DNA of 64,000 nucleotides from Megaustenia siamemsis (taxonomy: Eukaryota; Mollusca; Gastropoda; Stylommatophora; Ariophantidae). Under the pieces are notes generated by a model. It did not search any database. It was given only the letters and a program-made list of their open reading frames with translations, and had not been told where the DNA came from. Shown piece by piece: positions 5,633-31,761 of this stretch. The stretch's first letter is position 1. Every line of letters begins with the position of its first letter. The position numbers and the translations under genes are program-made. The stretch is taken from assembly GCA_032433765.1 (NCBI GenBank), contig JAVIAB010000051.1, positions 47,043,986 through 47,107,985 of the forward strand, written 5' to 3'.

Positions 5633-5637
5633 TAAAC

Positions 5638-6239: not shown

Positions 6240-6500
6240 TAAGTAAAGTAACAAGTAAATGTTCCCTCTACGCCTTGATAAGCGTTTGGGAAATATGGAG
6301 TTAGCGACCATACTTTTCCATGACCACAGAATATTATTTGGTGTGGTTGGTATCACACCAGGACGATTTTATTTCTCAGAAAATCTCTAGTACCCGTTTT
6401 AAGAAACTAGGCGAAAGTTTTGTCGGTCCGGAAAAAAGGATAAATCTTCCACTTCTAGAATTTGAACCCGGCCCATTCTGACCAAGAAGCGAGCGTTATG
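6240..6500 (-). repeat. Decayed SINE related to the 3529 family
   Basis: On the minus strand there is a B-box-like stretch (complement of gaatttgaacccgg, about 6459) and downstream remnants of the family tail (gggaaatatggagttagcgacc at 6289-6310 matches gggaaatatggtcttagtgacc of the copy at 21846). It is heavily diverged. Confidence 0.55.
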
Positions 6501-6533
6501 GTTGTCCTTTAATTGAAGCCATTATCAGTTTAT

Positions 6534-8098: not shown

Positions 8099-8146
8099 TG
8101 ATCAGTTCAAGTGATGCAGCCAAATGGAGCTATACCGGAGAAACAG
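8099..8146 (+). CDS. CA exon (first one found), KWSYTGET block
   Basis: Acceptor tctttcag, donor gttagt. It enters with two bases of a split codon and leaves with one. It encodes [15 protein letters not shown], the conserved N-terminal Trp-Ser-Tyr strand of alpha-carbonic anhydrases. The entering phase requires at least one more coding exon upstream, presumably with the signal peptide. Confidence 0.88.
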
Positions 8147-11100: not shown

Positions 11101-13421
11101 TTTATCAATATTGTGAACATTTGTTGACAAGAAGTGTTCTATCACATAGCACCTTACATGTAGCTACATTAACAGCAGAAGCTGGGATTGTGTTATTTGA
11201 GAGCGGCAACGCATGTTGCTGTTATTAAGGGACTCTGTTACTGCACGTATTTGGTGTTCGCTACAAAATCTTCCACTACTACCTCTAGGCAGAATGCACC
11301 TCCTCTGAGAGATGTTATATTGCGCTAGTTCTACATCCTCTTTGAAAACCCAATAGCTTTAGCACGATCGTTGACAAATGTAGCTATCACTATTACAAAA
11401 CCCAATAGCTTTAGCACGATCGTTGACAAATGTAGCTATCACGATTACAAAACCCACTTCCTTAGAAAAATAATTTCTCGTGGAAGACCTTCTGCTGTAA
11501 CTTGACAAACCATATTTGGCCGTCAATTATAAAGTATATTGTTCCCTGTCATAAACTGGGCAGTAGCGACGCCTAATACTGTGCTGCTCGAGATTGGTGA
11601 GGCACTATTTGGTTGTATATGAGACCCCTTAATGCCCTCAAGAGAGTTACCTAATTCCGAATGTCCAAGGTCATCCCTCAGTCACTGGCAAAACCAAAGA
11701 TTGTGGTAGTACAACTTGACCTGCTAATAAAAATGAAATGTTGGTTGCGGTTGGTCGTGTCTTACTGTTTGCCTGCAGCGAGACCCGTTTGGATTGGATG
11801 TTAATACATGAAACAGCCTTGTGCACTGGCACGTGTGGCGTCCTTGGCCTTAGAAATGTTTTGTATAAGACAGAGAGGGCATGCTTCATTTTGTAGACAT
11901 ATAGGGCACGAGACGTCGTCTACCTTATCTCACTTTACTTTAAGTTTGTAGCTATTGACTTTAGATATAGAATTACCCGACTATAGCTGAGGCGCAAATG
12001 TGTCTTACTGTAAATGTCGTTCCATGTCAATGATCGCAGCAACGATCCCACAATTGTGGTTGGACTGTCATTATTTTGTAAAAGTTCCTTCTTCTCTTCA
12101 GTTTCATGTCCACATAAACCAACATGTGCCACGACAATTGGGAGGCCTTGACCGTCATCTATGTCACCGTGGCCAATCCAAAGTCTGCATGATTGCTTAT
12201 CACTTCCCGCAGCTTGAGATCTTTCCCTACCTTTTACACTGCGGCAAAGAGCCCGCGACTTCCACTCACTACTTATGTTTAAAAATAGAAATATAAACAA
12301 AGATATCTTCTCAACCTCGTTTTCTCCTGACGGGGATTATAAACGTTGCCAGTTTCACCAAACTACTTCACAGTTTGTCCCCCAGAGAACTGAAGATCTT
12401 ATCCCTAGAACCATCTCAGAAGACGAGTTCTGCATTCTCTGGATGCCAAACGCTGAGACTGAAACAGAAATGGAAATGACCTTGTACACAACAATTAATT
12501 AAATATACAACACAAAATGAACTATTTTAGTGTAGCAGCATTTAATCCTCAAATCTCTAGTCATATATTTATTTTATTTTATTTTTAAAGACGCAAATGT
12601 AGCACAACACTTGTTCGTTGATGGGAAATGAAGGGTTAACTGAAACTGATTTATGTATGGCGATTATGTAGCATTTTGTTTGTATAGTTTTCATAGACAA
12701 GAAAATTACTGGAACTGTAGAAATGTGGTTTTACAGAAGAATGTCGAGAATACTATGGGCAGCTAAGAAGAGTAATGAAAACGTTATGAGAGAGGCTAAA
12801 GCAAAGAGAGAGCTAATTTCCAATATTAGGAAAAAAACAATGATTATTTTTTGGCCATGTGATGAGAAGAGAACAGCTGGAATATATTGTGACAACTGGG
12901 AAAGTTGATGGATGAAAAGACAGAGGTAAGCAAAGATAAAAGATACCAGACAGCTTAAGAGAATGGCTTGGCAGAAGGTCAATAACAGAAATGATAAATA
13001 ACTGTCGAGATCGACAGTTATGGAGAGACATGATCACCTACGGTAGTTGATGATAATGATGATAATTTTCTTATCACTGTTGGGACGCTGGCTGTTTTTA
13101 TTTTTTGAAAGTTTCCCAATTACTGTTAGATGTTAGCCTTTTTTTTTTTGTATTTTGCTATTTCAGTTCAAGTTGATCTCGAGGGTGACTTTTATGTGAC
13201 AAATGGAGGTCTTTCACATGTATACAAGGCATTTCAGTTCCACTATCACTGGGGCAAGGAAAATAATGAGCATCATGGATCAGAGCATCTTATAGATGGG
13301 AAAGCTAGTCCTCTAGAGGTAGGCGTGTGCAATATATGTGTAGAGATCATAAATACACACAGACACACGAGCACACAACACGCAAACTCATATATATATG
13401 AGTATACAGAGTATATAATAC

Positions 13422-13471
<50 letters not shown>

Positions 13472-16400
13472 TGAGAAAGAGAGCGAGCGAGAGAAAAAAA
13501 GGAGGGGAGTGTTATTAATGTTACGTGTTACAAGTGCTCTTTTTTTAACAGATGCATCTGGTTACATACAACTCGGAAGAGTATTCTGAAGTTGGTGAGG
13601 CTGTCATATCGCCAGGAGGGCTTGCCGTACTGGGAACAATGCTTGAGGTAAGAAACGGTTCCTTCCCTTCATCGAATTAGATAAAATCAGCCTTTATTTC
13701 TGTCTATCATTTTATTTTTTACGCAGGTAGTATTAGTTATAAGTTGTATCGTTTATTGTTTGTGTTTGTTTTATATTGTCCTAGAATGACTTCATTCACC
13801 GTTGAAAACTAATGATATGGGAAAATCTATTAAATATTGCTCATTTTACAGCTTCATTTGTCCATATAGCGCCATATTGAGAGGTAATTTTTAGATGATT
13901 TGGGGGGGGGGGGGGGGGTGTGAGGATTGTAGTCGTAAATGAAGGAACCTGAAAATAATTGAAAGGAGATCATAATATTAAGACGTCACGACATAGATTA
14001 CGGGACAATTATAACAGAGTAATTTGTTAGCTTAATCAGTGTTTATTCGCAAAATAACTAGGCCTCATGACGAACACAATTGCATGATTCTTGATTGAAG
14101 ATGGCTGATGATAATTAATTAATCAAATGTTCAACCTACTCTATGAACTCGTTCCTCTCAATTCGTCGATTTAATAATAACATCTATTTATTTTTCCATG
14201 TTGGGAAGTGAACTAAACTATCGTTGTGTAGGACTGTCACACCCCTAATCGCATAGTGCTATTCTACCTATTATTTACCACTGTCTATGTACCACTTATA
14301 GACTGACTGTTTCAAATAATTCATATATTAACATTTAATTATCTGGTCTAGATTAATTCTGCAATACTCTTCACTAGGAATTTATCTACTATTCCACTAG
14401 ATTGTCTTTTGATTAGTGACTAGATTTTGGAAGTAATTATAATCAGAATATCATCGCAATCAAAGAATAAATCATAAAAAAATTGTTGAAATTATCTTGC
14501 TCCCTCTGTGCTCAACAGTTTAAAGTCTATGTCCTCTGTCCCAGTCAACCAACCAATGAAAAGAGATATTTGTGAGGTTCTGATGTACGTGTGCCTTCCT
14601 GTTGAACCTTGGAAAGTTGTCTGTCTTTCTGGTTGACATGATCATTCCCTGGTCTTTTGACTAGAATCGTCTCTAAATTTCCTTATTACTAACCTAGATA
14701 TCACCTGTTCATGAAGTGACCCTTAACGGTCAGTGGCCTCTCTAAATTAAGATGTACATATCTTGTTATCGTCTTCTTTTGCCAGTGACTTTTACCTTTA
14801 AGTGAACTCTTAACTTAACCCTTCACCTCTAAGTGAACTCTTAACTTAACCCTTCACCTCTAAGTGAACTCTTAACTTAACCCTTCACCTCTAAGTGAAC
14901 TCTGAACTTAATCTGTCAATATAATTTGGGGACATAATTTTAATTATCTGGTTGCTGACGAGTTCCTCTATTTATCATCTCATCTCTTTTTTTCTATCTA
15001 TCAACTTATCTCTCATTCTATGTTTCTGTACTTTTAGTCATGTTAGTTATATGAATACTATTATATGATATAATGTTATCAAATATCTGCTTTTTGTATT
15101 AAATGGGTTAATTTAAAACAAACAAAAAATTTACAAAATGATGAAACTCCTTAAATGTTAGTAATTTTAACAGAAAATAAAAGAAAGAAAAATTAGGTAT
15201 TAGTAGTTGAACAAAGATTCCTAGAAATTTTAGCAGATCAAGCGTGTCAATGGAAAGAAAATACATTAAAAAATGACCAAAAAAAAGACATTCCTGTGCG
15301 TATTAAAGAAAACTATATTTATTTGATTGCTCATTGATTTATATTCAAGTGTATGTAAGTATATAATGTATTTAACTGTGCAGATAATAACTTCTTCTTC
15401 TTCTTCTTCTTTCCTTCCTCATCTGCCTTTCAGCGTCGAGGGGAGATATAATTTGCGGTCTTTTGCTCTTCTGTTCGCCTCTGCTGCTGTTATGTTTCCT
15501 AGTGCTTCTAATATTCCATCGATCCATCTTTTTCGTGGTCGACCCTTGGGTCTGTTGTTCTCACAACGTTTGTTGAAGGCTCGTTGTGTTGTGTTTTGTT
15601 CTTTCTGCCTTGTCACGTGGCCGAACCATTTTATCTGTTGTTTCCTTATATATTCTATGGCTGGGGCTATTCCTAGCTTTTTTCTCAGTTCTACATTTCT
15701 GATCTTATCTCTCAGACTGTTTCCTGTCATTCGTCTAACACATTTCATCTCTGTAGAGGTTATTTTTCTTATTGTTCTTGCATCTAGAGTCCAGGTCTGG
15801 CATTGGTAGCACAACGTTGGAATGAAGATTGTATTGTATAGTGCTCGTTTTGCCTCCAGAGTTATTTCCTTGTTGGACAATAGTGGTGATAACTGTCCGA
15901 TGATTTGACAAGCTTTGTTGCATCTTGATTCTATCTCTGCTGTTTGGGAATTGTCGTTTGTCATTAGACTGCAGATAATAACAAATGTAATAAACACTAG
16001 TTTACATACTTTAACGCGTGTGTCTTTTGTTGGCAGCTTACTTTCTTTCAAAAAAGTTGCCAGTAATTTAAAATAAGAGACAGACCTGTACGTGACAATT
16101 CATATAATTAATTTTTAAATTAATGTCTGTTTTGTTTTCAGATTTCCGATGAAGACAATCCGCACTTGGAATTAATCGTGAAGGCTTTGAAACACATCAG
16201 AGATCCAGGTGAGTTATATTGGTATTATTGTTTGAGCAAATCTTAGCTACTTAGAAACACCACGTTATCTCTCTGTCATGACAAAAAATTGTTTCCACCA
16301 AAAGTCAGCAAATATAACATAATCATTTACAGCCAGTTTGACTGATCAGACTTCAGAGAAAATTAGCAATTGAGCATTGTCGAATTCAGAGGTCAGTTTG

Positions 16401-19400
16401 ATTATTAATCCAAAATAGAGGTGGGCATGGTCGCTGTACATAGCTATTCAAAGGATGTAGATTTTTTTTTTATTGTACTGTAAACGGGGTTATTAAATGT
16501 AAAAGTGTTGTTTAAATGTAGACAGGGTTGCATACACGCCGTTATAAACTGGAGCCTTGTAAACTGGAGAGAGATTTAAACTAGTGGAAGCGCTTGTGTT
16601 GCTTCCTCATAAAGGCGTGTGGTCGTGAACCTCTGACTCACCCAACCGTAACAACCTCAGCTTCGTGTATCGCGACGGCGTATATGCTTAGTCTTAGTGA
16701 AACCTGATAATTACTTGTCTTGGCCGTTCTTTCTTTCCTCCCGTGACTCTGCTCATTCGTTGGTATGGTTGTCGATAACCGTACTTCGCGTTGGTTTAGA
16801 TCAATCGTTAAGTTGGACTACAGTACCACTGTCTACTTGAAAGTTACTGCACATGAGAGTCTCTCATAAAACGAACATCACGATTTTATTGGCACAGTTC
16901 AATAAAATAATAATACATCAATTATCACAAACCAGCGGTCTAACATCACCGCTCGGTTATTCACTGTAAATGCTAGGATTTATACATTATCAACTAACTC
17001 TGGAAATCAATCTCCTCGCCTCTCTCTCGTCCTTCACTAAATCACTCCTAACTACAATGAGCGGTTACTCGATCTACTACATCTTCCTAGTTACACAGTT
17101 GTTTGGAAATCCCGTCTTATCAAAATAATCACTAATACTAACAATAAGCTTTGGCTCATGTGCGGCTATAAGGCTGCACTCCTAGCGGCGTGGCAGCTTC
17201 TGTTTCCTAGCATGTGAATCTCTCTTGGAATCTCTTTTCGAACCCTCTGCGGGCCCTTAAATCTCTCGCCCCTCAGCCAATCAACAACAATCTCCTTATT
17301 TTCCCATCCAATGAATTCTCTTAACGTCATCACTTCCATTTCACCTTCACCTTTCTCCAACCTACTCACTTCCCAGTGTTGTCACATATCTCCACAATCA
17401 CGAGATTCTCCTCTCTCACCCAAACAACAGTACCACATTGAATTCTCGGGAATGTCACCTCCCCACACACACTGTGTTTCTCAGCTCTCTCCATACCATC
17501 TCTACTCTCCTTCTTTCCTTTACACCTAATAGTACAAACTACTTCTATGTGAATTATCTCTTAGTTAATTCTTCCTTACAGTTGTAGCACATGACTAAAG
17601 AGATAAAGGACTTAATTTTAGCGTGTATTTAATTTCATTTAAAGTATTTCATTTTCTTCTCAACATTATCGATATGTTCTGCCATAAATTCACCAGGCTA
17701 TCTTTCACAGTTGATATGTTTAACTTCTTCAATACTTCCTGTATTTTGTTCTCCAAGCTACTTTGTTATTCAATTTTTTTACGTCCTTGTCTGGTTTCTC
17801 TTTCGATCATTCGAATCCTACTTTCGAACTTTCCTCATTAACAGGCTGACGTGTTATTAATCCATTTCAATTAAAGTGCCGCTATGTATTCATGCGTTGT
17901 GGGTGTGGTATTATGCTGAACGCAGAAGTAGAGCATGAACAGGCTGACTGCTAACGTCAGAGTTAGCGAAATAGGTCGATACAAAAATGTCATACTCTTA
18001 TCTTCATAACCAGAAAATGAGCCTCGCTAATTTTTTTTTTTAATATATATAAACAAAATCGTGAGGCAATTAGATGTGGGAGTAATGTGTTGGAGGGAGT
18101 GATTCGAAATGGTCAATTCTAGATGCACAGAGAGCAGTGTAACACAACAAACGATCTCATCCTGCGTAATGACAACTAAGTATAACAAGATCCTCCATGA
18201 AATCGTTGTATTTACAGTTTTACAAGCTTGTGGATCTCATTTCAGATGTTCATGAAAAGGTGAGCTTATCCCCGATGTCCCTCAGAGATTTCCTCCCCAA
18301 TGACATATCCCGCTACTACAGGTACAACGGCTCACTGACCACACCTGGGTGTTTTGAGAGCGTTATTTGGACAGTTTTTGAAGACAAGCAGTCAATTTCT
18401 AGAGCTCAGGTAAGTCAACCAATTTCTGTCAGCAGCTGGGTCCACAGCAGTTTTTTTTTTTTTTTAACTAACAACGAGTACAATTGACAATGCTTCCAGT
18501 GGGAATCAACACATTACTGGATAGGCGGTCGAGCACTTATGGGTAAAAGCCCGCATGCTAAAATGCCGATTCAAGTCTTGTAACTTTACTTACAGGTAAA
18601 TCAACATATTCTTGACCTCAGAGCTCATCATCACCATCAAGTACCGGGCCTGTTGGCGTAGGTGATCATGTCTCTCCACAACTTTCGATCTTGACAGTTC
18701 TTTATTATTTATGTTGTTGACCTTCTGCCAAGCCATTCTCTAAAGCTGTCTGGTATCTTTTCTCTTTGCTTCCCTCTTTCTCTTAATCCATTAACTTTCC
18801 CAGTTGTCACAATATATTCCAGCTGTTCCCTTCTTATTACATGACCAAAAAAATATTGATTGTTTCTTCCTAATATTGGAAATTAGCTCTCTTCTTGCTC
18901 TGGCCTCTTTCAGAACGTTTTCATTACTCTTCTTAGCTGCACATGGAATACTCAAAATTTTTATGTAAAACCACATTTCTACAGCCTCCGGTCATTTTCT
19001 TATCTATAATGTTATTGTTCATGATTCACATCCATATGTTAAGGCTGACCCTACTTTATATTGAAGAACTCGTTTTCTTGTTTCTGTTGTCAAAAATGGA
19101 TTGCACAGTAGTGTCCTCATTTTTTAAAAGCTGCTTTTCCCTGGGCTATTCTGCATCTCATCTCTGTTTTTCATCTACCATCTGAGGTCAACATTGTTCC
19201 CAGATATTTAAATTCATTTACCAGTTTTAATATTGTTTCACTTGTCTTTATCGTGCATTGCGGTCATGTTTTTTTCTTTGTGTCTATCATTTTTACTATT
19301 GAGGTCCTTTATTTCTGCTTTCCTTCACTATAATGTCTAACATTTCTTGTAACTCACTCTCATTCATTAAAATATCAGAGCTAGCAACTCACAAAATAAT

Positions 19401-22400
19401 AGACAACAATTGTATTTTAGACCATAATTTTTATTGCATCAAATTGTCCTTGTAAATACCGCTGGTATGTCTATTTATTAGACATGAACAAATTACATAT
19501 ATGACAAAAACATGACTAACAACTACCTCACAACAACATTTTCATCGCACTATTTCTAATCCCAACTTACTAGAGCGGGACGTTGTTTTACTTTATTCTT
19601 TCCCTGTTGTATTTCAAGACAGAGAAAAATTGAGTGTTGAGTTCACTGATGTGTATTGTCTCCTAAATGGTGATCATCGTGATTTCTGCTACCTCCCCCG
19701 CCTTCCACACTTGTCCGTTCCTTCTGACTGTTAAAGCTCTTTGGGTGATGCTGTCTTGCGATCGATCGTATTACATCGAAAAAAAAGAAGATAGAAAGAG
19801 CAAAATTTGAGAAACAAAATCATTCAGATTAGATACATTTGGAGAATATTAGAAGAAAAAGCAAAAGGTATAAAGGATTAACCAGCTGTTGATGTTTCCC
19901 TACTGGAGTGTTAAAAAGTGTAGGGATCTACCAGGCCTTAAATATTGGGAGCGTTCGCTCCGACTGGAAAAAAATGTGTAGGTTTAATTTTACATTGAAA
20001 AGCTGTCAAATGAAATAAAAAAAACTTCTAGTGGAACCCTCGTGTTCCCAGTAACCCATGTTGAGAAAGGCTGTTCCAGACAGTTATTTTGTATTATTAT
20101 AACAGAGCTGGGTTACAACTGTTTAAGTAAAATGAAGAAAATAGTAGGCAAATCTGCATAATACACACAACGAAAGTGGGAAATTAGTGTAGATGCCTGC
20201 TGTTGTTAATAATTGTAATACATAACAATCAAGAACAACCGTATTGGAAATTAACAGAAAAGTGTATTTTTTTTAGCAATATCTTTTGCACATATTTTTT
20301 GTGCCGCTTGTTTTTCATAGAGGAAAGTTGGAATACTTGGTTACAACTGGCAAAATAAAAGGATAGAAAGATCGTGGACGACAAAAAGAGAAAATACTGG
20401 ATAGCTTGGTGTCATGGAAAACAATCAACAGAACTGATACGATGCACTGTGGAAAGAAGATTGTGGAAGGACATGATCGCCTACGCCAACAGGTATGGTT
20501 CATGATGATGATGTTTTTCATACATTCTATTAATGGCAGATATCTGTTGCGCTGGACACAGAGGTATTCGTCAGAACTTTCTCATCTGACGAGGTCTATA
20601 CAGAGGTGCTGTAGTTAACAATTTGAGGATATATCTGTAGCTTTCATCTCATCAGTGCTTTATATGATCATAAGTCCTTTCGTTCTTCGATCTTAAAATG
20701 CACCTTTGATGAACGGTTATCCACCAAACTTTCCATATGGCAAGTCTATCCTCAAACGAAAGCTCAGTACTTACGTCAGTTGATATTTAAAATCTATATA
20801 TCTACAGCTTTCTCATTAAAAACAAATCAGAAACGTCAGTTACTCATCGACGGAAAAAAACATGAGTACCTCCGAAGTCGGAGTTATCTGCCTGTGCGGC
20901 GAGGGACCCTTGTGCACGCGGCTACAAGGGAAAAATGGATTAACACGCAAAACTCAGTTCCTATTTTCTAGGGACTTCGTCAAAGTTGAAAGCTGGCGAA
21001 CGCAACAACAAGAACAAACGAAACCTGTGATTTAGATAACATGGTAAATGTTTGATCGCTTTCAATCACTACTTTAACGGCATTTAATACTGTCTCTACT
21101 TATGATGTTTTGTACTTAATTATAGATTATATATAAATTTACAGAGCAGAAAGAAAGTCTAGTACTTGGATGGTTGTTTGTATGAACTATTTGTGTTCAT
21201 GTTGTTTTTACAATCTTGCCATAGTTGAGAGAATTCAAGAAGCTGCTACAACATAAACGATTGGTACAAAAGGGCAAGAGTAAAGACAGTTATGAGATCA
21301 GCAGACATCGTCGTTCTCTAAGAAGTGCTGATCGAAGAATTAAGATGACAGTCCATGCTGTCTTGGATGAACTGGGCATCAGGGTAATGACATTTTTGTT
21401 TTAATTAGGAAAAAAAGGAAGTTTAGTGGCACTGTGTTTAAAGGCACGCATACAAAAACATACACCAAACATACATGCATTAAGCCAATAAGCCCTTGCA
21501 ATTCACTTTATCTGGTACTAGTTCAAATTATCACGACATTGTCTCGCCAGTGACTTCTATTGTTCAGGCCCAAGACTGATTTTATCGATAGGCAGAAGCT
21601 TCTCTTTCCCTGAATTTGGAGCAAGCTACAGTCTTTCAAAATGAATCTCAAATAGTTATCATTACTTGCAGTGAACGACTATTTCAATATTACACTATTT
21701 ATTTTCTAACATTTTTTGTAACATGCCATACTTATAGCACAATGTTTTCTATAGCGTCGTATGGAACCATAACGTACTGTATTTGTCATATTTTATTATA
21801 TAATGCTATGTCGTACTCTATTCTGTCATGTTGTTTGTTATAGTAAAAAGTAAAGTACCCCCGTCACGCCAAGTGGCGTATAGGGAAATATGGTCTTAGT
21901 GACCCTATATTTTACAAACCTACAGCACATGATTTTTGGGGTAATGTGGTCGGTATTACGCCCGTGCTGCTTTACTTTCCCAGAAAAAAAATCAGGTACG
22001 CATTTAAAGCTGGGTGAACCCGGAAGCCGACGGTTGGGATCGAACCGTACCCCTTGTCCTTTGTAGCCCAGTTCACTAACCACTGAGCTATCGCGGTTCG
22101 CTTATTTGTTATAGTAGTAGTAGTCAGCTATTCTCATTAAAAAACGATTCCTACATAGTAACAAGTGTTTCATTCTCTACAAAGTAAAGTTAATCTGTCA
22201 TTGCTTTCATGTCCTGTCGAGCTGTGTGGCAGGGTTTCTCTGCGGCCTTTCATTAACAAAGTGTTTTTTCCTATGACTTTGTACTTGTGAATTAATGGAC
22301 GCGACCAATCCACCTTCATCTTCTCTGTGTTTACACTTTGATCACCTCATCATGGTTTGGTTGTACCTGTTGTGTTACTCATTTTGATTGGTCAAGATAT

Positions 22401-25400
22401 TCACAGAATTCTTCTTAAACAGGTTTTACGAAAATAGACAACCTTCATGATTCTGAACAAATGTTATTCAAAATTCAAATATTAAAGATTTTGCTTTCCT
22501 GTGGAGGCCTTATGGGGAGAATAAAAAAACATCCTAACTGATTAGGAACCAAAATAGGGAGAAACATCCTGTACTAAAAAAAAAAATTAATTTGTCAGAT
22601 CACATTTATTTTGTGTCATTATTGTTTATGTGCTACAGTAATACTCTCGACATTTCTGAACATGCCTGTCTTCTATTTGTTTCTTATATAAAAGGACTTA
22701 AATCATTTAGCTGCAAATAAAATGTGGAAACGGTTGCGTTACAAAATGCTAATCTTGTTCAGCTCTTAGCTCTGTCTTGGTTCTGTTTTGTATTCTTTAT
22801 ATTACAATAGTTATTTTTTTTTTTAACAATTTCAGGGAAATAAATTTCAAGAAGCCGTTTTTCGATCTGAACTTGAGTACGCCAAGATGAAGGTGGGCAC
22901 AGCACATCATGATGACGCTGAATATGTCTTGTAAGTTTGCAATGAACTGCAACCATGTTTAGTGATATTACTCTTTCCTCTCCATTGATTTAGAGACGGC
23001 GATTAAACTCAAAGTTTCTCTGCGCCTCATCAACAGACATTTTGTTATATATAAGATGATAGTTTGTAGTCGTGTGCTGCTCTTTTTGTGCTATGGACTA
23101 GAGATGTTCAGCTATGAGTGCACACTTGTTTTGGTTAAATTTAAGATTTGAATTTAAGCAACAAGAAGAGGAACAGCACATAATGTTGTTTGAAGAACGT
23201 TTAAATCTAAGTCATTATAAAGCTTTAAAGGCACCCATAATGTCACTTTTGTGTTTGGCTTTGAAGGTAAAATATAGTTTTTAAAATAAGCTAGTCTTGT
23301 GCACTGCCAGACAATTAATCATAAGTTGTTTTGATGGGTTTTTTTTAAACACAAGCTCATTGGGTATGGATAATCAGTATTGATTAAATATGATACAATG
23401 TAGAAATCATTTTGAAGACAAATGTCTCAGAAATAAGAGAAGTGGCCAATGAACCAGAGATCTCAACTACAATTAAGGAAAGAAAATGGTCTTATGTTGG
23501 ACATGTGCTGAGAAGAGACAAAAAGAGAATTCCAAAACGGGCTCTTCAATGGGAAACATCAAGATACATAAAAAGTGGAAGACCTAATGAGACACTAAAT
23601 AGAACACTTATAAGAGAAGCAAAGTTGGCAGGTATAGACTCATTTGATAAGATCGAACATCTCGCCCAGAATAGAGATGGGTGGCGGATGGACTACAAGC
23701 TCTAGGCATCGCCTAAAGGCACGGGAATGATCGAGAATCAAGAAGGAAATCAATTTAGCATAACAGTGTTATCGTCTTCCAAAGAATTTATCTTCTTTTT
23801 TTTATGAACACAGTCAGTAATATAGAAGAAGAAAAGAAAACAAATATCACCCTCTAATTCCACACCAAGTGTATGTGTTAAAGGAAGTATGGTATTAGTG
23901 ATAATCTTTCTCGACCACATACATTTTTTTGGATGATGTGACACTAGGTTAGATCTGTCTTTCTTTCCGAGGGGGAAAAAACATGCTACACATTTCAGGC
24001 TGTGTTAACCACGAAGTCATTATTCGAATCTGATTTCTTGTCTGCAACAGACCAATTTATTATCTACGGCTACAGAAGAAAATATTAATTAGAATTTTTT
24101 CATGATATTTTTATATCGTCGGTTAGTAGCGTCATACATGATTAGCCTTTCATGGAAGCCCTGCGTCTCAAACAATTAGCCAAGTCACCTTGGTTGAAAT
24201 AAAATCGTAATGAGTCTGATTTCCAAGTGTTGGAGACTAGGGGACTTGTCTTTTTGAACCATACAAAATAATAATTAATAAACATGCCTTTTAGAAATCT
24301 GACCTAACATGTTCTAATTGTACCCTCTCCTTCCCCCCCCCCCCAAAAAAAAAAAAAAAAAAAAAACTACCATTAGACCAACAAAGAAATTCTTTATTTA
24401 GCAAAGTCCGTGGCGATTCCTTAAATAGTTCGCTTATTCTGCTGTATAATTTTCATCTGTAATGCCACAGTTCTACACCAGGATTGCTTGTGTCTGTCTT
24501 TCTTTCGCAATCCTTTCGGAGCCCATTGCACGACGATAGCTCTTGTGATTTTTTTTTTCTCGATCTCTTCTTATCACACGTCATATTCAGATCGTCTAGC
24601 TGCAAGCACTTTTCGGCTGCACTTCTGAAACAGCTAACTCTTAAAGTTGCTTTCATGAAAATTCTCTTCAGGTACCTTCTATGAAGTGTTATCACATTAA
24701 TGTTTCCTTCACCGTTGATCTCAATCCTTATGCTCCATATTAATAAAAGATAATGTCTTTGTCCGGCTTGTTGCAGGAGCTACTGAGTTAAGTGCTCTGT
24801 GCACACCGTGAGCTGTGTGTCTCATCCGTTTTTATCATGTTTCGATATTCCAATTGCTTACGATGAGTGACGACAAGGAACAGTTGGCTGTGTTCACTTT
24901 CTGCGCGGTTTCACCTTATGTCTTTTGGCGTGGGCTGAGACTGCTACGATGGGGAGTTACCTTTCTTTGTTTGGGAAATGAGATATTAATTTGGATGATT
25001 ACGCTGGCACGGGCGGTTGAGCAACCAATTAATAAAATAACAACGAAAATGAGTGACTCTCAGATAGTCATTTTTCAGTTTTGAATTTAGTTTCTCTGTT
25101 TCACAAGGGATTTTGAACATACGCACACTTCCAGTTCACGCAGATGAAAAATAAATTATGTACCTTACTTTTGGTCAGAGAACGAGTCGTAGTGTCTTAC
25201 TGCCTCAAATTGTGTGACCAAGAGAACTAAATGACTACTATTCACCTCCTTCCTAAAAAGCAGCAATGCTATGGAGCTAACTTCTTTTCTTTCCTCTTTC
25301 TCACTGGTACCTGAAAGGTGTCGTGGTTATATCATTTGTCGTTCTTGCACTGCTCGGACTGTCTGAATTAGTGATTTTCCTTTGATATTGCATGTCTCTG

Positions 25401-28400
25401 TCACTGCATCTATCCATCTTCTTCTGGGTCTTCCTATTGGTCTTTTTCCATGCATTCTTGAGAACTATACCCTGACAAACGCTCTGGGTTGATCACCAAC
25501 TGTTTTTGTCAAAACTTCTTCTAGTCTTATTATCCTTCAATTGATCTGAAATGTAATGATTATCAAGTAAATCTGATGTGTGAACATTTATTACTTTTTT
25601 GGTAATGTTGTCTTTCAATTTTCAATCAGGCGAAAAAAGAGAGACACGGGCAAATATGATTCAGAGGACGATGGTGCCAGTCATGAAGGGAATGACGATG
25701 AACATCATGATAATGATGATGCCAATGATGGAAATGAAAAGGATGATGATGATGCCAATGATGAAATTAAAAAAGAAGATGATGCCAATGATGAAAAGAA
25801 AAATGATGGCGACAATGACCATGAGGAGCCAAATGTTGAACATGACACAGTCAAAGAGGTAACAACATGTTGTGAAGAACAAAATCTTTGTTATCCACTT
25901 AGACCATGTTTCTAATTAAATCCATGCAACTCATTATACGATCGTATCCACTAACCGAATGATATTTTTTGCACCACGTTATTTAATCAATATTTGGAGT
26001 GAATATAATTTACATTATGTAATCAACTACACTAAGTTTTCCATTAAAAAATCAACATATCATTAAAACTGACTAGTCTCTTTTAAACGAAAGAAAAAAA
26101 ATATAACTCCTTCTCTCTTACTTGCTGACTGGTGTAAGTTCAGACATTCTCATATCTGCCACGCCACACGCTTAAACAATAAAAACTTGTTTCTTGGTTG
26201 AAAAATCCGTCAAGTTTGTTCCTGTTCTTGGTTGAAAAATTCGTCAAGTTTGTTCCTGTTCTTGGTTGAAAAAATCGTCATGTTTGTTCTTGTTTTTGGT
26301 TGAAAAAATCGCCATGTTTGTTCCTGTTCTTGGTTGAAAAAATCGTCATGTTTGTTCCTGTTCTTGGTTGAAAAATTCGTCAAGTTTGTTTCTGTTCTTG
26401 GTTGAAAAAATCGTCATGTTTGTTCCTGTTCTTGGTTGAAAAAATCGTCATGTTTGTTCCTGTTCTTGGTTGAAAAAATCGTCATGTTTGTTCCTGTTCT
26501 AGATTGAAAAAATCGTCATGTTTGTTCCTGTTCTTGGTTGAAAAAATCGTCATGTTTGTTCCTGTTCTTGGTTGAAAAAATCGTCATGTTTGTTCCTGTT
26601 CTTGGTTGAAAAAATCGTCATGTTAGTTCCTGTTCTAGGTTGAAAAATTCGTCATGTTTCTTCCTGTTCTTGGTTGAAAAAATCGTCATGTTAGTTCCTG
26701 TTCTTGGTTGAAAAAATCGTCATGTTTGTTCCTTTTCTTGGTTGAAAAATTCGTCAAGTTTGTTCCTGTTCTTGGTTGAAAAATGCGTCAAGTTTGTTCC
26801 TGTTCTTGGTTGAAAAATTCGTCATGTTTGTTTCTGTTCTTGGTTGAAAAATTCGTCATGTTTCTTCCTGTTCTTGATTGAAAAATTCGTCATGTTTGTT
26901 CCTTTTCTTGGTTAAAAAATTCCTCATGTTTGTTCCTGTTCTTGGTTGAAAAATGTGTCATGTTTGTTCCTGTTCTTGGTTGAATGTGCTGTGTTTTAAA
27001 TAATTAATTGCGCAGCTTATGGGGAACACTTCCGGGCCGCTAAAAGTCATCGTCTGCGACAAGTTCTCCAGCACTGGCGCTAAATCCGCATGGACTCCGT
27101 GGTCGGTAAGTGTGACCCCAAAACAAATGTCTCCAAAATCGAAATTAGGTCACCGCTTATGTGACATGCTCGATGTAGCTGCAGTGTAGATGGTATCTGG
27201 CATGACGAAAACAGGTTACGCATACAGGCCCAGGAGATTACTAGGGCTGGTCACATGTTCACTTAAGAATCAATCACTTCACTAGAATCCTAACATGCTT
27301 GACATGCATAAAGGTATAGATGTAATTCTTCTAGTTGATGCTGGTCTAGTGCCCTTTTACTCAATGATAAGGCGGGTCGTAATGGCTTTTTTGACATTCC
27401 CAGCTCTTACTGGTGAAGATGGAATTCGTCTATCGCAGACTATAATGATAAATTACTAGTCCAGCCTAGAAGTACTGCAATACTAGGTTTTCAATATCAG
27501 TACAGCCACCACTACAGGGAACACGATAATCCTAGCTTCTGTTAGCCAGATAACTAAAAAATTAGCTCCGTAGGCAATGTCTTTCGCGCAGGTGTTCTCA
27601 TGACTATAGCATAAGGCTGCGATCACAGCTCGGAGATACATAGTGTATCTGTATTTTTTTCCTGCTAAGACAAGTATCTGCCGGATAGGGTAGGGCTGAA
27701 TACTTGCGTTGCAGACAAACATTTAGGACGAAACAGCACGAATAGTAGTTTCCAGTGGTTTAGGCTGGAGACAAATAATAATAAATGAATATTATTATAG
27801 AGGGAAACTTCCGAGGCGAGAATCAGCGAATCAATTCAGAGGAAGAGGTGTGTTTTACAGCACTCGGAAAAATTGACAAAAATAATCAACAACAGAAAAA
27901 AATATGGACCAAAGCAGGATCGAACCGGTACTCAGTGGCACAGCGCCTTGCCACGGAAAACCAAATGCTAGGGAACACTTGACAAATAATCAACAACAGT
28001 AAAATATGGACGCAAGTATTCAGCCCTACCCTATCCTGGAGATACTTGTCTTAACAGGACAAAATACAGATACACTATGTATTTCCAAGCTGTGATCGCA
28101 AACTTATGCTATGGTCATGAGAACACCTGCGCGAAAGACATTGCCTACGAAGCTAATTTTTTACTTAGCTGAGTGGCAGTGTTCCCTAGCGTTTGGCTTT
28201 TCGTGGCAAGGCGCTGTGCTACTGAGTACGGGTTCGATCCTGCTTTGGTCCATATTTTTTTCTGTTGTTGATAATTTGTCAATTTTTCCGAGTGCTGTAA
28301 ACATACCTCTTCCTCTGAATTGATTCGCTTCTGTTAGCTAGCCTGTTTTGGCGCAGACTGTTGCCAGGGGAAGACCACCAGGAGGTAGAACTGCTAGGTC

Positions 28401-31400
28401 TTGGTCAACTGATTGTGCTCCGACCTTGCTATTGTGACCGCAGGTAGCAGACGCTTATGCTCCACAAGGATAATAAAGATGGAAATCCAAAACATAATAA
28501 CGCGTACTTAAAACTTACTGAAGCAAAAAGTTACTAAGCCTGAGTACAATTTGAGTAAGCGACCATCTCGGCTTGCCCAAAAAAAAGTTCATAGATAAAA
28601 TAGACATCGTCTTATTCTTAGTTTGCCTGTTCATCCTTTTAAAAAAGCTTTTCATTTAAAAAAATGCCGCTGAACAACGATGCACTATCATGTAGTTATC
28701 AGTATAGTTACATAAGAATATTTTTCACTTTAACAGCTTGAGGATAGTTCTCATGTTAACAGCTTGAAATATAAGAATTATCATAATGCTGTCAAAAAAA
28801 TAAACAACGTAATTTGCTAGCAGATCTCTTCCTCTGTCTCTCTCTTATTTTATTTCTGAAATATTTCATGCTTGGTTTATTCAACATAATACATCACTCT
28901 AGGACTAGTGGAAATGTTTTATTGTGTCCAAGCGTGTGCGCACGCGAGAATCTCTTATAAGGTGTCTTTATCGCTATTAAAGAACACAATGTATGCCAAT
29001 ACTTGACAATAACATTTATATCCTGCAGATATCTTCTTCTTCTTTCTTTTACCTTTTAGCTCCTGGTGGAGCATAGGTCTTCAACAAACATTTTCCAAGT
29101 CGTTCTGTTTTTTGCCATTCTTTTAAGATCATTCCATGTCTTCCCCATCATCTTCATCTCTGCTTCTATCTGTCTTCTCCAAGAATTCCTTGGCCTTCCT
29201 CTTTGTCTTTTCCCCTGGGGATTCCAAAAAAAGGGCCTGTTGTGTAATACTCTCAGTTGGTTTCCGTAGTGTGTGTCCTATCCATCGCCATCGTCTTCGC
29301 TGTATCTCTCTATCCACTGGTATTTGACCGGTACATTTCCATAATTCCACGTTAGTGACTTTGTCCTGCCATTTCCATCCCTTTATTCTGCGCAAGCATC
29401 CATTAATGAAAGTCTGTACTTTCGTGATTGTCAATTTTGTCATTCTCCATGTTTCACAGCCATATAATAGGACCGACTTAACATTTGAGTTGAAAATTTT
29501 TATTTTTGTATTTAGCCTGATTTCTTTGGATTTCCATATGTTTCCCAGTGCAATGAAAGCTCCTCTTGCTTTTGATATCCTTATTTTGGTATCATTTTCT
29601 GTTCCTCCCTCTTTATCTATATTACTGCCCAGATATATATAAGATTGTACGTCTAGTAGAGGTATTTCTCCTAGTTTTATATGGTTATTGCCAACTGCAT
29701 TAATTCTCATAATATTGGTCTTATCTCTATTAATCTTTAGTCCTAGCTGTTGTGATCTCTCATCTAATATACTCATTTTATCCTGCATCTGTTGATGGCT
29801 GTGTGATAGGAGAGCTATGTCATCAGCAAAGTCTAAATCATCAAGTTGTTTGGTCAGTGACCACTGGATCCCATTTCTGTTGTTTTGAGTTATTTTCATA
29901 ATCCAATCTATGGCCAGTAGAAAGAGAAATGGAGACAGGAGGCATCCTTGCCTTACTCCTGTTCTTATTTCAAATGCTTCTGTAAGCTGTCCTTCATGCA
30001 CCACACTACATTTTGTTCCTTCATACATTGTTTTTATCAGGTTAATAAACTTTATGGGGATTCCGTAATGACTCAGCAACTTCCAAAGCATTCTTCTGTC
30101 TAAACTATCAAATGCCTTTTCGTAATCTATGAATCCAATATATAGTGGGGATTTTAGTTCTAAACTTTGTTCAACTATTATACGTAGGGTAGTTATTTGA
30201 TCAGCACATGATCTGTTCTTCCTAAAACCTGCTTGTTCATCTCTCAAGTGTTTCTCTATAGCCTCTTTTAGTCTCTCCAGAATGATTCTGCCTAATATTT
30301 TTCCTGGCACTGATAGTAGCATAATTCCCCTATAATTTGTGCACTCCTGTAAACTTCCTTTCTTTGGTAGTTTGATCATATAACCTTCTCTCCAGTCTTT
30401 AGGTATTTCTTCCCTCTCCCAAATTTTATCCAATAGATCCTGTAACATCTTGGTAGAGGTGTTAATATCTGCTTTGATGGCTTCCGAAGGAATTTCATCT
30501 GGTCCTGTGGCTTTACCATCTTTTAATAATTTGATGGCTTTCATTATTTCTTCTTTGCTTGGTTTTCCGCAGTTAACGTGTAACTCTTCTTCTGCTGGTA
30601 GTATATCTGGAGGATTATTTGAGCCGGGTCTGTTCAAAAGTTCTTCAAAGTGTTCTTTCCATCTCTCCATTTGTTCCCTTATATTACTAAGCAGATTTCC
30701 TTTCTTGTCTTTGATAAAGGCGTTGATCTGTTTGTATTTTCCACCTAATTTCTTTGTGCTGTTGTACAGTTCTTTCATATTCCCTTTATTTGCTGCTTCT
30801 TCTGCCTCTTTAGCTAGTTCATCTATATATTTCCTCTTATCCCTTTTAATGCATCTTCTCACTTCTTTGTTCACCTCTGTGTAAGCTTCCTGTGTCTTGG
30901 CTTTATTACTTCTTGTTTTGCTTTTATTTATGTCTGCTTTCTTGTTCTTTCTTTCTTTAATTTTATCCAGGGTCTCTGCTGTCATCCATGCCTTATTCTG
31001 GCGTTCTCTTTTCCCCAGTGTTTCTTCGCATGTCTCTTTCCATATATTTTTTACCTGTTTCCAATGATCTTCTATATTTATTGTATTTTCTAGTTGTTGG
31101 AGGACTTGGTATTTGTTTGATATTGTGACTGCGAATTTATCTTTAATTCCTTGTTCTTTAAGAAACCCTACATTGAAATACTTTCTACCCTTATTCGTTG
31201 TATTATACCTTTTTAATTTAATTTTAAGTTTGGCTAACAGAAGATGATGATCAGAAGCTATATCTGCCCCTCTATATACTTTTACATCCTGTAAGGATGA
31301 CTTAAACTTATTATTAATACATATGTGATCAATTTGATTGATATCTAGCATCCACCAAAGTTGCAAATGTTATAGTTATTTAACTGACTGTCCGGTCTTG

Positions 31401-31761
31401 TCTAATGTCAGTTTGGGCAATTTTGTTAAAATATAACTATTTTACTGATACATTATACATTTATATATTCTTGTCTTATCCTTAAATTCAGGTCACGGAA
31501 ACAGAGTTTGAAGAGGATGTTTACACACAAGATAGTATGATAGATAACTTTAGGCCAGTTCAGCCACTCAACGACCGAGTTGTTTACAGAAGCTTCGAAC
31601 GTAAAGTCTACAGGACAGCGGCAGTAGTTCAGCTGGATGAGAAGCTCAGGGCAGGGCAAGCCAGTTACCGTGATGGAGACAACGACAACGGGGCAATCTA
31701 TCACAGACTGTCTTTTTCAGCAGTTTTAACTGTTCTAATACTCACTGTGATGTTTATGTAG
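8099..31761 (+). CDS. Extracellular alpha-carbonic anhydrase with a large charged insert (nacrein-like layout), 11 exons, 5' end missing
   Basis: Interconverts CO2 and bicarbonate, at the cell surface or outside the cell. Eleven exons join without a frame break into 513 residues; numbering starts at the first complete codon of exon 8099. Visible landmarks: WSYTGE near residue 9; C28 and QSPIDI at 33-38; NNGH with shuttle His72; QFHYHWG with zinc ligands His99 and His101; SEH with the Glu106 equivalent (E113); MHLVTYN with the third zinc ligand His126; GSLTTPGC with the Thr199 equivalent T210 and C214, which would pair with C28. NFRPVQPLN comes only at 443-451. Residues 242-440 are an insert where ordinary family members have about 15. 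The last 17 residues (497-513) are hydrophobic with no tail after them and follow DNDNGA, which fits a GPI-anchor signal. Expected signal peptide not found; it should be in an upstream exon. Nacreins also have a CA domain split by a low-complexity acidic domain, but here the repeat is DDAND-type, not Gly-X-Asn. Orthology is inference. Confidence 0.93.
8906..9079 (+). CDS. CA exon with QSPIDI and shuttle histidine
   Basis: Acceptor ccaaacag, donor gtatgt. 174 bases; begins with two bases and ends with one base of split codons. Encodes [17 protein letters not shown] followed by SPIDI and ends in NNGHT. The Cys is the first partner of the disulfide typical of secreted CAs. The His in NNGH corresponds to the His64 proton shuttle of human CA II. 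Confidence 0.93.
9310..9520 (+). mobile_element. Degenerate LINE tail
   Basis: Translation shows a decayed LINE C-terminus: an ILEGKK-like start, an A-rich basic stretch, [12 protein letters not shown] and a [12 protein letters not shown] segment. These correspond to the glycine/arginine-rich and Trp-containing tail of families C/H. It lies within the intron 9080-13166. Confidence 0.5.
9521..12659. other. Intron sequence, largely featureless
   Basis: Part of the CA intron 9080-13166. A 52-base unit beginning cccaatagctttagcacg occurs twice in tandem at about 11349-11452. Open frames at 11671-11889 (minus) and 11935-12300 (both strands) match nothing I recognise. Otherwise AT-rich and without visible structure. 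Confidence 0.5.
12660..13070 (+). mobile_element. LINE family B, 3' end (copy 1)
   Basis: Encodes [20 protein letters not shown], then [10 protein letters not shown], and ends in a TGATGATAATGATGAT-like microsatellite tail typical of this family. It is frameshifted after about 12905. It lies about 100 bases before the CA exon at 13167. Copies at 18615 (minus), 55840 (minus) and 59345 (plus) match. Confidence 0.8.
13167..13318 (+). CDS. CA exon with first two zinc ligands
   Basis: Acceptor tatttcag, donor gtaggc. 152 bases, ending in phase 0. Encodes [19 protein letters not shown]: both zinc histidines of the HxHW motif and the Glu that orients the active-site Thr. The loop between ligands two and three is two residues longer than in human CA II. 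Confidence 0.94.
13360..13500. repeat. Compound microsatellite (CA, AT, GA)
   Basis: Consecutive CA-like, TATA-like and (GA)n tracts in the 233-base intron between CA exons 13167-13318 and 13552-13647. Confidence 0.9.
13552..13647 (+). CDS. CA exon with third zinc ligand
   Basis: Acceptor tttaacag, donor gtaaga. Exactly 32 codons in phase 0. Starts with [11 protein letters not shown], so the previous exon's final Glu plus Met-His gives the E-x-H third ligand motif. Ends with [11 protein letters not shown], a conserved CA core strand. Confidence 0.93.
13648..15382. other. Intron sequence with 31-bp tandem repeat
   Basis: No gene. At about 14797-14912 a 31-base unit containing taagtgaactcttaactt repeats about 3.7 times. 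There is a run of G at 13904-13917. The rest is AT-rich intron. Confidence 0.6.
15383..15967 (-). mobile_element. LINE family A, 3' end (copy 2)
   Basis: On the minus strand an almost clean frame encodes [60 protein letters not shown] and the basic tail [13 protein letters not shown]. The (GAA)n tail is seen as cttcttcttcttc at 15391. It is 5'-truncated and sits antisense in the CA intron 13648-16141. Confidence 0.88.
16142..16208 (+). CDS. CA exon, short helix segment
   Basis: Acceptor gttttcag, donor gtgagt. 67 bases, leaving one base of a split codon. Encodes [19 protein letters not shown] then RDP, matching the amphipathic helix (xNPxLxxIxxxL) of alpha-CAs. The phase fits both neighbours. 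Confidence 0.88.
16620..17386 (-). mobile_element. Possible solo LTR
   Basis: Read on the minus strand the block starts TGTGACAACA (complement of 17377-17386), has an AATAAA signal about two-thirds of the way in, and is richer in GC than its surroundings. No target duplication, primer-binding site or internal region was seen, so the 3' end is a guess. It lies in the CA intron 16209-18245. Confidence 0.3.
18246..18409 (+). CDS. CA exon with LTTPGC block
   Basis: Acceptor atttcag, donor gtaagt. 164 bases, starting with two bases of a split codon and ending in phase 0. Encodes [20 protein letters not shown] followed by [10 protein letters not shown]. It carries the active-site Thr, the second disulfide Cys and an N-glycosylation sequon (NGS). 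A nearer upstream AG (about 18217) would break the frame. Confidence 0.94.
18615..19385 (-). mobile_element. LINE family B, 3' end (copy 2)
   Basis: The minus-strand frame shows [20 protein letters not shown] and [16 protein letters not shown], with a GATGATGATGAG-like tail at about 18620-18640. Further upstream are decayed reverse transcriptase residues (complement of about 19170-19230 reads like [12 protein letters not shown] with errors). It lies in the CA intron 18410-21224. Confidence 0.8.
19386..20314. other. Intron sequence without recognised features
   Basis: AT-rich CA intron; no coding or repeat structure recognised on either strand. Confidence 0.5.
20315..20518 (+). mobile_element. 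LINE family F, 3' end (copy 1)
   Basis: Begins [14 protein letters not shown] (frame with a stop) and continues to ggacatgatcgcctacgcc and an ATGATGATG tail. It matches 35290-35735 and, inverted, 32585-32870 and 62345-62795. Confidence 0.75.
20836..20995 (+). repeat. Dispersed repeat, copy shared with 34125-34270
   Basis: About 150 bases, from tactcatcgacgg through ggagttatctgcctgtgcgg to gggacttcgtc, are highly similar to 34125-34270. In that second copy the block forms the 3' part of a tRNA-headed SINE, so this is probably a 5'-truncated SINE. Confidence 0.75.
21225..21383 (+). CDS. CA exon, start of insert (basic segment)
   Basis: Acceptor gccatag, donor gtaatg. 53 codons in phase 0. The first eight residues, LREFKKLL, are the normal CA helix before the C-terminal block. 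The rest is unlike CAs and rich in Lys/Arg, for example [13 protein letters not shown], which holds possible proprotein-convertase sites. Open frame and phase continuity support it as an exon; its function is unknown. Confidence 0.8.
21846..22104 (-). mobile_element. tRNA-derived SINE with perfect target duplication
   Basis: It is the same family as 3529-3776, inverted. On the minus strand it has the A box (tagctcagtggtta), a B-box-like stretch and the 3' end cacttggcgtgacggggg. It is bracketed by identical 12-base duplications TTTGTTATAGTA at 21834-21845 and 22105-22116, so both ends are exact. It is a fairly young insertion in the CA intron between the exons at 21225 and 22836. Confidence 0.92.
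22836..22930 (+). CDS. CA exon, insert segment 2
   Basis: Acceptor aatttcag after a long T tract, donor gtaagt. 95 bases, phase 0 in, two bases of a split codon out. Encodes [20 protein letters not shown] then [11 protein letters not shown]. No family is recognised. The phase matches the following acidic exon exactly, which is the main support. Confidence 0.75.
23400..23730 (+). mobile_element. LINE tail (family H)
   Basis: One open frame encodes [20 protein letters not shown] then RIPKRALQW and [15 protein letters not shown], ending [13 protein letters not shown]. This is the C-terminal GHVLR segment of an RTE-type LINE protein. It is 5'-truncated and lies in the CA intron 22931-25629. Confidence 0.75.
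23820..24060 (-). repeat. Decayed SINE related to the 3529 family
   Basis: ggaagtatggtattagtgat at 23884-23903 resembles the family's ggaaatatggtcttagtgac, with similar spacing to the head side. Diverged, tentative. Confidence 0.4.
24764..25045 (+). repeat. Dispersed repeat R2, copy 2
   Basis: The most complete copy: from ttgttgcaggagctactgag through tttctgcgcggtttcacc and tatgtcttttggcgtg to gcacgggcggttgagcaa. It is truncated relative to copies 1 and 3, which continue into aattcgtttgcagtgatacc. Class unknown. Confidence 0.7.
25280..25545 (-). mobile_element. Degenerate LINE tail
   Basis: The minus strand contains the Gly/Arg-rich stretch followed by Trp-Ile/Met-Asp (complement of catctatccatcttcttctgg at 25406-25426), the usual end of RTE-type LINEs, with several stops. 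It ends about 85 bases before the acidic CA exon. Confidence 0.5.
25630..25858 (+). CDS. CA exon, Asp/Glu/Asn-rich insert segment
   Basis: Acceptor tcaatcag, donor gtaaca. One base completes the previous codon, then 76 codons. It opens with RKKR, a furin-type site, followed by low-complexity sequence with three DDAND motifs. It has 22 Asp and 11 Glu among 76 residues, plus many Asn and His. Such chains bind divalent cations; in biomineral proteins they bind calcium. The role here is inferred from composition only. Confidence 0.82.
26191..26990. repeat. 34-bp minisatellite, 24 copies
   Basis: Units of exactly 34 bases with the core ttcttggttgaaaaa then tcgtcatgtttgttcctg. The ttggttg word starts at 26194 and again at 26976, 23 periods later, without a phase change. 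It fills most of the CA intron 25859-27015 and stops about 26 bases before exon 27016-27105. No spacers are present, so it is not a CRISPR array. Confidence 0.97.
27016..27105 (+). CDS. CA exon, insert segment with NTS sequon and WTPW
   Basis: Acceptor tgcgcag, donor gtaagt. 30 codons in phase 0: begins [19 protein letters not shown] and ends with SAWTPWS. It contains an N-glycosylation sequon, one cysteine (C408) with no obvious partner, and a WxxW C-mannosylation-type motif. It lies 26 bases after a 24-copy minisatellite. Confidence 0.75.
27530..28330. repeat. Imperfect inverted repeat carrying two opposed SINE heads
   Basis: About 27560-27710 is the reverse complement of about 28007-28150 (shared ctaccctatcc, gatacactatgta, acctgcgcgaaagac). 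About 27815-27965 is the reverse complement of about 28190-28325. The second pair carries a tRNA-like B box (gggttcgatcc, 28229-28239 on the plus strand). The order is A-C-A'-C' rather than a simple hairpin, which suggests two insertions or a rearranged foldback element. It lies in the CA intron 27106-31491. Confidence 0.75.
29030..31370 (-). mobile_element. RTE-like LINE (family D) with a long intact frame, 5'-truncated
   Basis: A single open frame of 745 codons (29129-31366, minus). In order: the end of an apurinic-type endonuclease ([12 protein letters not shown] and SDHHLL), reverse transcriptase motifs ([36 protein letters not shown] and the catalytic [10 protein letters not shown]), then the C-terminal GCETWRMT and [10 protein letters not shown] segment. 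It ends in a (GAA)n tail, seen as cttcttcttc at 29033. The first Met lies inside the endonuclease domain, so the N-terminal part is lost and autonomous activity is unlikely. The intact frame implies recent arrival. It is antisense to the CA gene, in its last intron. Confidence 0.92.
31492..31761 (+). CDS. CA terminal exon, NFRPVQPLN block and hydrophobic tail
   Basis: Acceptor ttaaattcag, phase 0, stop TAG at 31759-31761. After a short acidic start comes [20 protein letters not shown], the conserved C-terminal CA strand. Then about 45 polar residues and the final 17 residues [17 protein letters not shown]. The absence of any residue after the hydrophobic stretch favours GPI anchoring over a transmembrane helix. 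Confidence 0.92.
   Translation, partial: VTETEFEEDVYTQDSMIDNFRPVQPLNDRVVYRSFERKVYRTAAVVQLDEKLRAGQASYRDGDNDNGAIYHRLSFSAVLTVLILTVMFM

Follow-up and report, generated by a model that had tools for sequence, protein, structure and literature searches.

A conserved loop insert with a furin-like site, apart from that of nacrein, in a predicted membrane-anchored α-carbonic anhydrase of Megaustenia siamemsis

The gene described here encodes, as judged from its sequence, an α-carbonic anhydrase (CA) with intact catalytic motifs, the domain of which is interrupted in a surface loop by a long, charged insert. Sequence comparison identified this insert as a shared molluscan feature that is found in dozens of gastropod and bivalve proteins, and it therefore does not represent a peculiarity of a single gene or a product of chance. 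The insert apparently constitutes an old and previously undescribed molluscan design. The initial annotation had recognized the interruption, yet overlooked a conserved multibasic site, a conserved helical part and a GPI-like C-terminal tail.

The DNA under study is a 64,000-nt window of a Megaustenia siamemsis contig, and all coordinates refer to positions in this window. Based on splice borders and reading frame, 11 plus-strand exons spanning positions 8099-31761 were joined into one continuous 513-residue coding frame, closed by a TAG stop codon (31759-31761; Table 1). Support for the exons was derived by comparing 61 homologous proteins (P0001-P0061) with the window by tblastn. The exon borders and phases between 18246 and 31761, described as compatible in the initial annotation, were confirmed (AG/GT borders, compatible phases and a frame open to the TAG). 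The residue numbering of the spliced frame likewise agrees with the earlier numbering, LREFKKLL being located at residues 234-241 and NFRPVQPLN starting at residue 443. The sole piece absent from the gene model is a signal-peptide exon, for which a scan of window positions 1-8080 yielded no candidates; this exon probably lies upstream of the window or was missed.

Several mobile and repetitive elements were also observed in the window. The intron preceding the last CA exon harbours a LINE-type retrotransposon (29132-31369, minus strand) with a 746-codon open frame encoding a reverse transcriptase domain (PF00078, E 2e-35), while further reverse transcriptase fragments (PF00078) are located at 45373-46167 and 63726-63998, also on the minus strand. 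A Mos1-type transposase HTH fragment (PF17906; 55104-55571, minus strand) represents a mariner-like element. At 4210-4809, a plus-strand open frame consists of tandemly repeated units of ~15 residues (EVKFGKTMGSSNIMN) and is probably a minisatellite.

Table 1. Exons and protein features of the α-CA gene, with window positions and the basis of each assignment
Feature	Positions	Strand	Basis
Exon 2, mature protein start	8099..8146	+	Splice borders and frame; weak match from 10/61 homologs
Exon 3, CA core: Cys28, His72 in NNGH	8906..9079	+	Matched by 58/61 homologs
Exon 4, CA core: His99, His101	13167..13318	+	Matched by 60/61 homologs
Exon 5, CA core: His126	13552..13647	+	Matched by 55/61 homologs
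Exon 6, CA core	16142..16208	+	Matched by 47/61 homologs
Exon 7, CA core: Cys214	18246..18409	+	Matched by 61/61 homologs
Exon 8: LREFKKLL (234-241), then insert start, multibasic site and first predicted helix	21225..21383	+	Matched by 13/61 homologs, best E 2e-8
Furin-like site RHRR, residues 260-263, then S264	21303..21314	+	Matching Arg nearly invariant (>=90%) in homolog alignment
Predicted hairpin, first helix (residues 267-283, ending HAVLDELGI)	21324..21374	+	Alignment to AlphaFold2 model of P0004; same order in P0043
Exon 9: second predicted helix, residues ~289-305	22836..22930	+	Weak match from 1/61 homologs (E 0.08); homolog models
Exon 10: acidic tract, DDAND repeat unit	25630..25858	+	Weak match from 2/61 homologs (best E 0.005), largely compositional
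Second furin-like site RKKR, residues 319-322, then D323	25631..25642	+	Spliced sequence
Exon 11 (doubtful), encoding 30 residues with one NTS sequon and one Cys	27016..27105	+	Matched by 0/61 homologs
Exon 12: insert end, NFRPVQPLN from 443, GPI-like hydrophobic tail, stop	31492..31761	+	Matched by 61/61 homologs

A Pfam search of the deduced protein revealed a single α-carbonic anhydrase domain (PF00194) at residues 16-248, with a score of 273 bits against a cut-off of 27 (E 3e-81), and the HxH, SEH and NNGH motifs are present. His99 and His101 are taken here as zinc ligands, with His126, which was identified by reading the spliced sequence of the window, presumably being the third; His72 of NNGH is assumed to be the proton-shuttle-type residue. 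The zinc-site motifs were retained in 47 of 47 rows and NxGH in 46 of these. In a phmmer comparison with solved structures, CA XIV represented the top match. The C-terminal block (approximately residues 431-461) aligned to CA XIV and CA VII as a separate stretch at 5-9 bits, which is not significant by itself; nonetheless, this block was matched by all 61 homologs compared by tblastn. The Pfam result and the splice frame thus agree with the earlier reading of a real α-CA that is interrupted between the CA helix and NFRPVQPLN.

LREFKKLL and NFRPVQPLN are 201 residues apart if exon 27016-27105 is included, so that the previously proposed insert of ~199 residues is reproduced by the frame. However, since this exon was judged doubtful or optional (no homolog match, a poor pyrimidine tract and the outcome of a deletion test), the insert is taken to comprise 171 residues, of which 51 are D/E and 28 are K/R. 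The earlier description of four dedicated insert exons stands as regards the separate exons and their basic-then-acidic order, though not as regards exon 27016 being part of the mRNA. Exon 25630-25858 was shown to encode 33 D/E in 76 residues, a count identical to the one given before, and the DDAND unit of its acidic tract results from a 30-bp tandem repeat (25709-25808, 3.2 copies) located inside this exon. The RHRR sequence at residues 260-263 fits the R-X-K/R-R motif of proprotein convertases. For the downstream RKKR site, comparison by eye with P0003, P0004 and P0007 revealed no counterpart at the corresponding position. Searching a 161-residue piece of the insert against Pfam returned no families at E up to 1; domain hits beside the CA domain in two homologs (E 0.11 and 0.15) were below the cut-off and were taken as chance.

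Exon 27016-27105 is probably not part of the main mRNA, being either skipped or not real. Its pyrimidine tract is the poorest among the 11 exons (8/17, compared with 11-14/17 in the other ten); its donor site is good (5/6). The exon is 90 nt long in phase 0-0 and could thus be skipped, and a 34-bp tandem array (26191-26984, 23.4 copies, 93 % matches) lies just upstream. A plain comparison with and without the exon favoured removal in nine of nine homologs, yet such a comparison is biased by gap cost, and a sliding-deletion control was therefore used, in which 30 residues at a time were removed, the start of the deletion being moved stepwise from residue 242 to residue 413 (172 deletions, nine homologs). 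Removal of the residues encoded by 27016-27105 produced the largest mean alignment gain over the nine homologs (rank 1 of 172), the ranks for single homologs being 1 (P0003, P0007), 2 (P0262), 3 (P0004, P0017), 4 (P0018), 7 (P0270), 29 (P0008) and 81 (P0012). Splicing of 25630-25858 straight to 31492 generates a junction sequence close to that of Aplysia (DTVQPTAEVEIEFTQDILVNNYRP). The glycosylatable part that had been assigned to the insert is encoded by this exon and is consequently not upheld. A repeat-derived origin of the exon was considered and set aside, as its flank (26986-27300) has no second copy within the window.

To place the insert among related proteins, residues 200-460 were used as a query, which returned 217 proteins with E values of 0.001 or lower; among the best 120 of these 217, the top-ranked matches were molluscan, many being named carbonic anhydrase 14-like. 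Insert statistics were obtained for 44 molluscan rows (the window protein and 43 of the first 61 homologs, gene predictions among them). Insert length ranged from 75 to 199 residues (median 120), the shortest being that of a Candidula model (P0006, 75 residues), and the D/E fraction varied from 0.13 to 0.34. A multibasic site within the first 60 insert residues was observed in 41 of the 44 rows, compared with 17.2 expected from within-sequence shuffles, an expectation that overstates independence as family members share descent. A net basic first third was observed in 39 of 44 rows; beyond it, the insert was net acidic in 39 of 44 and showed no acidic excess in the other five.

In a 46-row alignment containing 43 insert-bearing rows, two cephalopods and Lingula, near-invariance (at least 90 %) was recorded for the Arg preceding the presumed cleavage point and for the Glu in the ELGI helix. 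In another set of 46 rows (the 43 insert-bearing rows together with Patella and two Elysia species), the strict R-X-K/R-R pattern was detected in 38, the match in some rows representing a second, downstream site, and a looser pattern in 43; the exceptions to the latter (Haliotis P0017 and P0027, and Mytilus P0029) retain a dibasic KR or RR in the stretch tested. Two proteins (P0001 and the Crassostrea virginica protein P0002) possess two tandem CA domains, each with its own insert and multibasic site.

Loop length was also assessed as the distance from TTPxC to the C-terminal block, which is 233 residues in the window protein, 211 in Patella P0262 (178-residue insert), and 159 and 156 in the two Elysia species (inserts of ~125 residues). 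This distance is 41-55 residues in the ten measurable non-nacrein tree rows that belong neither to the insert group nor to the cephalopods; these ten represent vertebrate, echinoderm, hemichordate, brachiopod, leech and two-domain molluscan CAs, a Haliotis CA7-like protein and a partial Lottia model. Two cephalopod rows showed distances of 67 and 89 residues, without a multibasic site. A pattern-based table of loop lengths was set aside for the short-loop counts, as its pattern failed to find the C-terminal block in 32 rows, ended too soon in some rows that bear the insert (e.g. P0003, absent from its long list) and contained a doubtful value of 299 for the low-quality model P0019.

AlphaFold2 models of two homologs, Bradybaena P0004 and Mercenaria P0043, were based on shallow alignments (46 and 40 rows) with shared members. 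Both models display the same order of elements: the CA helix (246-256) is followed by a stretch that contains the multibasic site and is not helical, two helices, a long stretch with pLDDT below 50, the C-terminal block and a terminal helix. The two helices span residues 279-295 and 301-317 in P0004 and 268-280 and 287-306 in P0043, and were predicted with moderate confidence (block pLDDT 63-78 in P0004, mostly 61-87 in P0043). Confidence was lower for the multibasic stretch (block pLDDT 63 and 49, respectively), and the C-terminal block contains a few strand or bridge residues. The insert is thus predicted from these models to form a helical hairpin followed by a disordered, usually acidic stretch. 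A Foldseek search with the P0004 model returned CA XIV as the first match. By reference numbering, the insertion point corresponds to region 230-240 of human CA II, an extended loop at the protein surface that has been removed in an engineered variant (PMC4519908).

By a simple hydropathy rule, a GPI-like tail, i.e. a hydrophobic C-terminus without a cytoplasmic part, was recognized in 42 of 47 rows, with some of the remaining five being truncated models. The C-terminus of the window protein fits the same rule, and the enzyme is accordingly regarded as a putative GPI-anchored, extracellular protein.

The loop placement, zinc-site motifs and hydrophobic tail lead us to infer a GPI-anchored, convertase-cut extracellular enzyme, and with moderate confidence we propose a membrane-anchored, catalytically intact CA that is cut in a loop to a two-chain form, its acidic tract binding ions locally. 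The window protein would be an extracellular GPI-anchored member of the molluscan CA14-like clade, in which the loop matching human CA II 230-240 would be extended by a furin-type site, a short hairpin of helices and a disordered, mostly acidic tract that evolves rapidly. In the secretory route, the precursor would be cleaved by a proprotein convertase at RHRR|S, generating a two-chain enzyme whose anchored chain bears the hairpin and the acidic tract. As the two core cysteines (Cys28 and Cys214) would both be part of the first chain, the chains would presumably be held together by the CA sheet alone. The acidic tract may gather Ca2+ or buffer protons near the site where CO2 is converted to bicarbonate, Ca2+ binding being plausible from its composition only. 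Cleavage could also offer a route for freeing the catalytic chain from the membrane, and a second cut at RKKR|D (319-322) would release the hairpin as a 59-residue piece. Cleavage, the two-chain form, the role in Ca2+ or proton handling and the tissue in which these would take place are all putative.

The insert may instead be an unprocessed, flexible linker that drifts in a permissive loop, with the multibasic stretch being merely basic near the membrane and having no role in cleavage or ion binding. The highly variable length and composition of the insert, the 30-bp repeat in the acidic tract of the window protein and the published removal of the homologous loop from human CA II are consistent with this explanation, which is nevertheless considered unlikely: drift of this kind does not fit the near-invariance of the site Arg and the ELGI Glu, or the recurrence of the multibasic site above shuffled expectation and of the charge order in the 44 rows. 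Use of the insert exons as optional parts, with a short CA as the main product and the acidic exon being used in one tissue only, is less probable still. The exon phases would permit skipping of 27016, of 22836 and 25630 jointly, or of all four insert exons, and the Candidula model carries only the minimal insert noted above; against this, every one of the 43 counted homologs, gene predictions included, possesses at least 75 insert residues (median 120). The convertase-cut, anchored enzyme remains the favoured reading.

Nacrein is the best known interrupted molluscan CA, and the initial annotation had interpreted the insert as an independent or strongly diverged version of the nacrein-type low-complexity domain. 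Insert placement was compared in an alignment using a 260-residue fish cytosolic CA as reference. In four of four family rows (window, Bradybaena, Patella and Mercenaria), the insert starts after reference residue 233, although the aligner divided that of the window protein into two parts, one of 136 residues following 233 and another of 52 following 239. In contrast, the inserts of nacrein and nacrein-like proteins follow reference residue 165 in five of five rows, i.e. two pearl-oyster CAs (P0121 and P0123), a Glu-rich Crassostrea virginica protein (P0157), the Glu-rich P0130 and Mytilus edulis P0126. The two kinds of interrupted CA thus use different loops. Whereas a nacrein insert is located upstream of the SLTTPPC motif, that of the window protein is not, and Gly-X-Asn repeats are absent from its sequence.

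A maximum-likelihood tree of 46 CA cores was consistent with this separation. The window protein paired with Bradybaena (support 99/92), which would indicate a gastropod near the stylommatophoran land snails, and both fell into a 31-row molluscan clade (100/99) comprising all 28 insert-bearing rows used, two cephalopods and Lottia. The window protein thus belongs to this clade both by its position in the tree and by an insert that follows the LxxF helix and carries a multibasic site and an ELGI-type helix. The five nacrein-type rows formed a fork of their own, supported at 98/94 in the drawn tree and at 100/99 when ungrouped rows were disregarded; this fork was adjoined by a long-branched Haliotis CA7-like row and did not include the window protein. 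The absence of an insert in Lottia P0053 is likely an annotation gap, as this partial model also lacks the CA helix. Two insert-label changes are required on the tree as drawn and one in only 8 % of bootstrap trees, while the starred branches force no more than one change; a single origin of the insert with shortening in cephalopods is possible. Taken together, the data suggest that acidic inserts entered α-CA loops at least twice in molluscs.

Although an α-CA is interrupted in both cases and nacrein-like proteins of Crassostrea gigas contain D/E repeats in place of Gly-X-Asn, such that acidic CA inserts have already been published (PMC4066178), homology to the nacrein insert was rejected as highly improbable in view of the different loop (165 compared with 233), the separate fork of the nacreins and the GPI-like tail of the window family.

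The closest known relatives are the molluscan CA14-like proteins (Bradybaena P0004, Aplysia 'CA6' P0007, Patella P0262 and Mercenaria P0043), which share the loop insert, multibasic site, ELGI-type helix and GPI-like tail, the CA core of Bradybaena P0004 being 71 % identical to that of the window protein over 241 residues. Compared with these, the RKKR|D second site, the DDAND repeat and possibly the extra 30-residue exon are features of the window protein. Vertebrate CA XIV, CA IV and CA XV, which are of the membrane-anchored type, have the fold, zinc site and two core cysteines in common with it but do not possess such an insert (TTPxC-to-block distances of 41 in several fish CA4 and 46 in Polyodon CA15, compared with 233). 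Nacrein, N66 and nacrein-like proteins are likewise interrupted by low-complexity sequence, with D/E-rich versions existing in oysters, yet differ in the loop used, in their separate fork and in the Gly-X-Asn repeats of pearl oysters.

In N66, the NG region (245-437) separates two CA parts, 69-221 and 490-554 (PMC6599672). The land-snail α-CA Cnem25891 of Cepaea nemoralis resembles the window protein in belonging to the secreted/membrane-bound group and in carrying low-complexity sequence; unlike in the latter, its low-complexity part is C-terminal and Gln-rich, leaving the CA domain uninterrupted (PMC4023409). Molluscan enzymes of this sort have been grouped as membrane-associated/secreted or membrane-bound (PMC6639325, PMC6359903). 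Mantle transcripts of Perna and Mytilus with a CA14-like best match are also reported, which does not imply placement in the same clade. In the excerpts of the literature searched, neither this insert nor a convertase site in any molluscan CA was found to be described; coverage in an earlier review is possible.

Tentatively, gastropods and bivalves may possess a family of anchored CAs that are nicked within the catalytic domain; at epithelia engaged in ion transport or calcification, such nicking may control enzyme activity or set the catalytic chain free. The findings point to a widespread, predicted membrane-anchored class that carries a conserved loop insert of its own and is separate from nacrein in both place and ancestry. 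In molluscs, such a class would represent a second case in which CO2 hydration is linked to proteolytic processing and to acidic sequence that may bind calcium.
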